Source of the DNA: Datnioides undecimradiatus
Taxonomy: Eukaryota > Chordata > Actinopteri > Lobotiformes > Datnioididae
Assembly: GCA_008933995.1 (NCBI GenBank)
Contig: WARS01000026.1
Span: 2,556,501-2,620,500, forward strand
Length of the DNA: 64,000 bases
Reading direction: 5' to 3'
Made by a program: the position numbers and the translations under genes. Positions 126-21,819 of the stretch are shown here, piece by piece. The stretch's first letter is position 1, and each line of letters begins with the position of its first letter. The notes beneath the pieces are model-generated. The model saw only the letters and a program-made list of their open reading frames with translations, searched no databases and was not told the DNA's origin.

Positions 126-302
126 CATAGAAAGACAGCTTCTCAACAGAGTTTCCTTCTCTGCTGTTTTCAGCCACACATTCATATATACCCGCATCTT
201 CCTGCTGGAAGTAAGGGATCTCTAAAACTCCGCTGGCTTTATTTATGTCCACCTTCCTGCCAAATGAAGCTCCATCCACTCTTCTCCAGCTGATAGTTGG
301 CA
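126..302 (-). CDS. cntn3: contactin coding exon 7: Ig3 domain, second half
   Basis: The 177-bp exon starts after an AG acceptor (304-303) and ends before a GTGAGT donor (125-120). It enters with two bases of a split codon and leaves with one, so both flanking introns are phase 1. The translation begins [11 protein letters not shown], runs through [20 protein letters not shown] and ends LSFYG, with no stop. It supplies the Trp of the first-half/second-half junction (SWRR) and the second canonical Ig cysteine (YEC) of Ig3. The residues match the contactin Ig3 pattern closely; the ENSREGN stretch replaces the usual ENSRGKN. The exon looks functional, in contrast to the exon before it. The rest of the gene (Ig4-6, FNIII domains, GPI signal) lies outside the window. 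Confidence 0.9.
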
Positions 303-592
303 CTGCCAAGCAACATGAAAAATATAACACACAGCAAGGCCACAAAATGAAAAACACTCCTGAAGATCATTTTATCTAGGGATTTTGCTCAGTTGAAAAA
401 ACACTGATAAGGCATTCCAATGTTTAAATTAATCTAAAGCATTAACTGGTGAATGTTTCTTCTCTATGTAGTCTGGATGCGCTAGACAAGAAGAAGTCAT
501 TAAAATGTGAAATCGCATTACCATTCAGATTTGACTGTCACAGTAAACAACTAATGGTGTAGTTATTACTGTGGTATAAATAATACACAGGG
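303..592 (-). other. contactin intron 6
   Basis: This short intron separates the damaged Ig3 exon from the intact one. The acceptor end (CATGTTGCTTGGCAG) is good. The donor end lacks a consensus site at the family position. No second copy of the missing exon end was seen in it. Confidence 0.6.
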
Positions 593-699
593 ACATATTT
601 CCAAGTGCAAAGTATTCCAGTTTGACAGTTGAGCCTCTAGCAACGGGACAACTCTTAGGAACTGCACTTCGATCTTGGCCTGTGATTCTACCATCACAC
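593..699 (-). pseudogene. cntn3: contactin coding exon 6 (Ig3 first half), apparently broken
   Basis: After an AG acceptor (701-700) the exon continues the split glycine codon and reads GVMVESQAKIEVQF, matching the contactin start of Ig3 (family: GVMGEYEPKIEVQF). Just after the Phe codon, around 655-660, the family frame is lost by one base. The remaining recognisable residues, VARGSTVKLEYFALGN, lie in another frame. In that stretch the conserved Ig cysteine of the family LECFALGN is a tyrosine codon. The family exon ends one base into a codon just after FALGNP, followed by a donor; here that point reads AATATGTCCCTG, without a consensus donor. A weak GTATTA follows about 10 bases on (near 588), which is why the 593 end is approximate. 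The three changes together argue for loss of constraint rather than one sequencing error. The lesions are described only; no restored sequence is given. Confidence 0.75.
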
Positions 700-1686: not shown

Positions 1687-1890
1687 CGTCAACTCGCAGC
1701 ACTAGAGGAGTTGGTGGTCCTTGAACACTGCTTTTGGTGACCATGTTGGTGACTACACAAGTGTAGTTACCCACATCAGAGGGCTCGACTTTGGCAATGT
1801 AGAGGTTGCCAGTCTTCTGGGACACAAATCGCCGTGTGTCCTGGACCACGAATGAAGGGTACTCATTGAAGATCCATGTGAAGGTAAGTT
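1687..1890 (-). CDS. cntn3: contactin coding exon 5: Ig2 domain, second half
   Basis: The 204-bp exon lies between an acceptor (TTTGTTCACAG, ending 1891) and a donor GTATGA (1686-1681). The split codon joins the preceding exon to give [16 protein letters not shown]. It then reads [19 protein letters not shown] and [15 protein letters not shown], and ends [10 protein letters not shown]. It carries the Ig2 tryptophan region (TWIFNEYP, the contactin-specific form) and the second Ig2 cysteine (YTC). The linker to Ig3, [12 protein letters not shown], is [12 protein letters not shown] in CNTN6 and VLGSPTPLVLR in CNTN3 as I remember them, so this exon does not decide the paralogue. It is open throughout, and both flanking introns are phase 1. 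Confidence 0.92.
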
Positions 1891-10755: not shown

Positions 10756-10851
10756 CTCCAGAGTGGGGTGGCGGGCCACACAGTAAGACCACTCCTTGAC
10801 CTTCACGAACCCTCACTGGACTTCTTCTCTGGGTCTTGAAGTTCTCCAAGT
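10756..10851 (-). CDS. cntn3: contactin coding exon 4: Ig2 domain, first half
   Basis: This 96-bp exon starts after AG (10853-10852) and ends before GTAAGA (10755-10750), entering with two bases and leaving with one. With the preceding exon it reads [18 protein letters not shown] followed by [14 protein letters not shown]. The [16 protein letters not shown] block with its first Ig2 cysteine is a hallmark of contactins 3, 4 and 6, and LENFKT with VREGQGVV is closest to CNTN3 from memory. The Ig1-Ig2 pair in contactins packs into a horseshoe and binds partners such as receptor tyrosine phosphatases gamma/zeta; that role is known for the family and not shown here. Confidence 0.92.
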
Positions 10852-18523: not shown

Positions 18524-18699
18524 ATGCGATATGCAGACTGGCCTCTCTGCTGACGATGGTGCCAAAAGAGTTTGATGCCAGGCACTGATAAATGCCAACA
18601 TCTCCCTCTTTATTCAGATGACTGATGTGTAAGTTCCCTCCCATTAGAGAGTAACGTGACCCCGGTCTGGGTAGGATGAAAGAGTCATTGAGCTTCCAC
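18524..18699 (-). CDS. cntn3: contactin coding exon 3: Ig1 domain, second half
   Basis: The 176-bp exon is bounded by an acceptor (CTATTCACAG, ending 18700) and a GTAAGT donor (18523-18518). It completes an arginine codon and reads R-WKLNDSFILPRPGSRYSLMG, then GNLHISHLNKEGDVGIYQC, LASNSFGTIVSREASLHIA and the first base of a Tyr codon. The tryptophan of RWKLN and the cysteine of YQC are the canonical Ig1 core residues, and SNSFGTIVSREA is the contactin Ig1 end. DVGIYQCLA resembles the CNTN6 form (DIGMYQCLA) more than the CNTN3/4 form (DTGTYQC / DAGTYQC), as remembered. The exon is open throughout. Confidence 0.92.
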
Positions 18700-21686: not shown

Positions 21687-21819
21687 CTGTAGAAGGGCGG
21701 TGGGTGTCCCTGGGCCTCGCAGCTGAACACCACCTCTCTGCGATTCTCGCCAGGTTGAAGGGGAAACACCACACTGCCGGGTTGTTTGGTGAACACGGGC
21801 CTCAGCAGGACTCCGTTTC
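21687..21819 (-). CDS. cntn3: contactin coding exon 2: Ig1 domain, first half
   Basis: The 133-bp exon follows a good acceptor (TTCTCCACCCAG, ending 21820) and ends before GTAACA (21686-21681). It reads G-NGVLLRPVFTKQPGSVVFPLQ, then PGENRREVVFSCEAQGHPPP and FY plus two bases of Arg. The PVFxKxP...FP-L motif and the first Ig1 cysteine (FSCEAQGHPPPFYRW) match the contactin 3/4/6 N-terminus. The exon enters with two bases and leaves with two, consistent with its neighbours. The mature N-terminus of the protein should lie at or just before this exon, after signal-peptide cleavage. Confidence 0.9.

Follow-up and report, generated by a model that had tools for sequence, protein, structure and literature searches.

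A contactin gene of Datnioides undecimradiatus with a damaged exon in its third Ig domain

Introduction

Two exons for each Ig domain, with matching phases, are a family-defining trait of contactins. Paralogues that are duplicated or redundant are commonly lost and, where a vertebrate exon loses its donor and keeps its acceptor, exon skipping is the usual outcome. Two familiar kinds of change are the closest counterparts of the locus described here, namely exon loss in a coding gene and the early stages of a paralogue becoming a pseudogene. The locus resembles both in having a donor-less, phase-symmetric (1-1) exon whose skipping leaves the reading frame intact. It differs in that the exon lost encodes half a domain and in that the case is known from DNA alone.

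The nearest relatives of the gene, CNTN3, CNTN4, CNTN5 and CNTN6, are neural GPI-anchored adhesion proteins of the IgSF, and by comparison with these the gene has a broken first exon of the third Ig domain. In excerpts from a paper on contactin 1, contactins are described as folding their first four Ig domains into a horseshoe, and Ig2 as touching Ig3 in the corresponding horseshoe of neurofascin (PMC9633819). PTPRG is bound through Ig2-Ig3, according to excerpts from a review of CNTN6 (PMC13148036). Searches of the literature on pseudogenes and exon skipping in contactins, on loss of cntn6 and on paralogues in fish showed no such case among the listed titles and abstract openings, and absence from print is not claimed.

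Results

The window, by which we mean the whole stretch of 64,000 nucleotides that was analysed, holds on its minus strand a gene assigned by its sequence to the CNTN3/4/5/6 clade of contactins, from the exon Ig1a to the exon Ig3b. Searches by tblastn with contactin queries placed Ig1a, Ig1b, Ig2a, Ig2b, Ig3a and Ig3b in succession, collinear and on that strand. Five of these exons are open: Ig1a (21687..21819, 133 nt, phase 1-2, donor GTAACA), Ig1b (18524..18699, 176 nt, phase 2-1, donor GTAAGT), Ig2a (10756..10851, 96 nt, phase 1-1, donor GTAAGA), Ig2b (1687..1890, 204 nt, phase 1-1, donor GTATGA) and Ig3b (126..302, 177 nt, phase 1-1, donor GTGAGT). Over their total of 786 nt there is no stop and no frame shift, and 10/10 borders are AG/GT. 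The sixth, Ig3a (593..699), which corresponds to the N-terminal half of Ig3, is damaged and measures 107 nt, against a family length of 108 nt with phase 1-1, as counted from solved chains and exon phases. Each Ig domain is split over two exons, and the phases of the six chain correctly with the interior of Ig3a excepted. The initial annotation had described the flanking and upstream exons as open and in matching phase, and so they are, except that its count of the upstream exons was slightly high: there are four in total, three of them beyond the flanking one. With a donor scoring matrix, the donors of four of the five sound exons scored 8.5 (Ig1b), 9.9 (Ig2a), 5.6 (Ig2b) and 10.4 bits (Ig3b).

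These six exons are the whole view of the gene, as the exons for Ig4-Ig6, the four FnIII domains and the GPI signal would fall beyond position 1. A signal-peptide exon was not found in the window with the CNTN4 signal peptide as the sole query, and tblastn with the queries tried gave no convincing additional contactin exon between 22000 and 64000. Two small differences from the relatives were seen in the open exons. Ig1a (21819-21687, minus strand) has two additional residues ahead of its first Cys when compared with CNTN4 and CNTN5 (PGENRREVVFSC), whilst Ig3b (302-126, minus strand) is one codon shorter than in CNTN3, CNTN4 and CNTN6, the codon being absent after the second Cys; the latter possibly reflects relaxed constraint across the whole domain. 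Elsewhere, the window contains several dinucleotide arrays. A Pfam scan of 10 of the 28 ORFs of at least 90 aa in the window gave no match at the cut-off and one weak match (E 0.088), and neither Rfam (gathering score) nor ARAGORN reported anything on the window.

Of the solved chains, those of CNTN4, CNTN3, CNTN5 and CNTN6 matched Ig2b best, in that order, and CNTN4 followed by CNTN5 matched Ig1b-Ig2b best, the CNTN3 and CNTN6 chains spanning Ig2 only. Over Ig2a, Ig2b and Ig3b combined, identity was 111/153 with CNTN4, 107/155 with CNTN3, 100/155 with CNTN6 and 92/154 with CNTN5 (the final CNTN5 letter being assumed). In a tree with CNTN3-6, support of 23-39% was too low to assign the gene to a subtype. 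Relatives were also sought by pattern in viral_contigs (57 matches) and genome_contigs (47 matches), of which 0 were confirmed, as expected for a vertebrate gene.

The acceptor of Ig3a, ttgtctctcttttgtaacag, ends at 700 and the exon opens at 699 with GTGTGATGG, so that the good acceptor and recognisable contactin start noted in the initial annotation were both recovered; the 5′ part reads GVMVESQAKIEVQF in the family frame. Between TTC (661-659) and AAG (656-654) the sequence then leaves that frame by a single base, at a site (657..659, minus strand) with no homopolymer longer than two. Past the break, family similarity continues in another frame as KSCPVARGSTVKLEYFALGN (tblastn match 659-597, E 1.5e-6 with the CNTN3 query, 2.5e-6 with CNTN4 and 4e-4 with CNTN6). 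Within this part the Cys of the Ig core, which stands in LECFALGN or MECFALGN in CNTN3, CNTN4, CNTN5 and CNTN6, is replaced by Tyr (TAC, 612..614, minus strand), and GVMGEYEP, fixed in the four CNTN chains, appears as GVMVESQA. In the family position of the donor, where GT is expected, CC is read directly at 591..592 (minus strand).

The one-base loss of frame and the missing consensus donor had thus been described correctly, and the earlier description was somewhat understated, the change from Cys to Tyr and GVMVESQA being further changes. Its proposal of very recent decay gains no support where Ig3a itself is concerned. Three disabling changes lie within 69 bases (591-659) and eight family-fixed residues are lost, Cys included, which suggests from the sequence that the decay of Ig3a has not been brief. 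Among the six exons in view, disabling lesions are confined to this one. We also compared the gene with two marks of the contactin clade, the GVMGEYEPKIEV motif and the core Cys of Ig3, and found GVMVESQAKIEV and Tyr in their places, which we read as exon decay within a gene whose other exons are family members. A second copy of Ig3a was sought over the whole window by tblastn with the CNTN3, CNTN4 and CNTN6 Ig3a sequences at E up to 20, and none was found, the only match below E 0.01 being 700-597. The next-best match, 4481-4431 (E 0.019, CNTN3 query), is without the Cys and was taken as a chance match.

We then asked whether Ig3a is looser than the other exons at sites identical in CNTN3, CNTN4, CNTN5 and CNTN6. 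With the residue at the frame break excluded, Ig3a retains 15/23 of these sites, compared with 32/33 in Ig2b and 20/22 in Ig3b (Fisher p = 0.0018, Ig3a vs Ig2b and Ig3b pooled). Shifting the gap in Ig3b by one column gives 20/21 retained for that exon and p = 0.0007. When one reference was left out in turn, the window retained 16/24, 16/24, 16/25 or 18/26 sites in Ig3a, whereas the held-out known contactins retained 24/25, 24/25, 24/26 and 24/27. The same control in Ig2b shows that working contactins lose such sites too, since held-out CNTN5 retains 33/43 and CNTN6 33/41 there. Counts for Ig1b and Ig2a rest on CNTN4 and CNTN5 only, and Ig1a was left out of the site counts. With these two as the sole reference, retention was 19/29 in Ig3a, 24/33 in Ig1b, 20/23 in Ig2a, 40/45 in Ig2b and 26/34 in Ig3b; Ig3a is the lowest and not far from Ig1b, and its contrast with the other four exons pooled (110/135) is weak (p = 0.08).

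A simulation of neutral decay covered nine depths and three indel rates, with the five sound exons represented by their 786 nt. The joint outcome of five clean exons and an Ig3a with its frame shifted and its donor and Cys lost reached peak probabilities of 4.4e-5, 3.2e-5 and 2.6e-5 at the three indel rates, figures that come from a simulation run after the pattern had been seen, with assumed rates and six exons only; allowing for any of the six exons being hit makes the even-decay probability approximately sixfold higher. By itself, Ig3a acquires its three lesions with a probability of 0.07 to 0.11 at depth 0.20. Given how rarely even decay yields the pattern, a decay centred on Ig3a fits better than even decay of the six exons. 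The simulation leaves room for a gene that became functionless recently and had lost Ig3a earlier.

Discussion

We hold with about even confidence that Ig3a has been released from constraint and is unable to provide a normal Ig3 domain, while its neighbours remain under selection or did so until recently. Because Ig3a retains its acceptor and has lost its donor, skipping is the most likely splicing result that we would predict, and Ig2b, which ends at 1687, would most probably be spliced to Ig3b, which starts at 302. Joining these two exons preserves the frame and gives an open reading. The predicted product would contain a complete Ig2 followed by the C-terminal half of Ig3 alone, the half that carries the W and the second Cys. 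Its Ig1-Ig4 horseshoe would be broken, and binding of the Ptprg type via Ig2-Ig3 would probably be lost; on the published descriptions of these domains, both should suffer when half of Ig3 is missing. The product may be an altered contactin, or a functionless stage on the way to loss. Several points count against a loss centred on Ig3a: the weak contrast when CNTN4 and CNTN5 are the sole reference, the loss of conserved Ig2b sites by held-out CNTN5 and CNTN6, and the codon missing from Ig3b. Half an Ig domain is moreover improbable to fold, and the maintenance of a gene in such a form would be unexpected a priori.

The weak contrast and the missing codon also favour a second reading, which we regard as a serious alternative and somewhat less probable. 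On this reading the gene as a whole would be a young pseudogene, a contactin paralogue in the course of being lost from the lineage, with most of the visible damage falling on Ig3a by chance and more lesions beyond position 1. With the CNTN4 and CNTN5 reference, Ig1b and Ig3b are nearly as loose as Ig3a, and one codon is missing from Ig3b. The branch of the gene is 0.32 against 0.11 for CNTN4 and 0.15 for CNTN3, but those of CNTN6 (0.36) and CNTN5 (0.43) are longer still. Moreover, in excerpts from a study that argues the case for zebrafish, cntn1-5 are given as having clear fish orthologues and cntn6 is absent from the list (PMC8808184), an omission which hints that this member of the family has been lost there. 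A pseudogene is expected to carry lesions or relaxed constraint across its coding region. Here 0/5 of the other visible exons, over 786 nt, have a stop, frame shift or lost splice border, and against CNTN4 and CNTN5 the retention is 24/33 in Ig1b and 26/34 in Ig3b. Even decay produces such a picture with a probability of 2.6e-5 to 4.4e-5 at best, under the assumed rates. The initial annotation had offered loss of the paralogue and loss of the exon from the mature mRNA as alternatives; the contrast between exons favours a decay centred on the exon, and skipping keeps the frame, the two alternatives being weighed here and not separated.

A stronger form of the Ig3a-centred loss would be a working contactin that is permanently without half of Ig3, in which all transcripts skip the exon, Ig1-Ig2 and the rest are under selection, and the horseshoe and the Ig2-Ig3 partner site have been given up in the lineage. 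This we consider unlikely.

It is very doubtful that Ig3a is still used by way of a GT at 594 (105 nt) or 588 (111 nt), to give a protein with a rewritten stretch. Each length is divisible by three and keeps phase 1-1, the acceptor is retained, and the unshifted frame of the exon is open as far as TAA at 566-568, its 44th codon. But the two sites score -3.9 and 0.0, whereas the other donors scored with the same matrix, four in number, lie between 5.6 and 10.4, and 76% and 37% respectively of all minus-strand GTs score equally well. The strongest GT between 640 and 311, at 521 (4.6), would give 178 nt and lies beyond the stop, and the rewritten stretch has no family similarity by eye. We also considered whether another exon lying between Ig2b and Ig3b might stand in for Ig3a. 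One candidate, 1145-1071 (minus strand, 75 nt, phase 1-1), which sits between Ig2b and Ig3a, is open and has a strong donor (11.5); however, 8/30 control tiles of the same size yield at least one candidate by the same rule, and it was rejected. By eye, the candidate has no family similarity.

An error of sequencing or assembly, or a damaged allele in the single individual sequenced with the exon intact in the species, is about as improbable. The lesions are of three kinds in three places with eight family-fixed residues lost, Cys included, the frame break is outside any long homopolymer, one base-calling error would be insufficient, and the window contains no N and yielded no second copy of Ig3a; a damaged allele would be compatible with all of this.

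Taken as exon loss or as early gene loss, the change is of a known kind, and its unusual part is that the visible damage is concentrated in an exon for half a domain. If the gene is dying, a neural adhesion paralogue would be disappearing from one lineage, to which its loss could be localised. If it is otherwise intact, it would be a natural experiment on the role of a contactin that lacks both the Ig1-Ig4 horseshoe and the Ptprg-binding surface of Ig2-Ig3.
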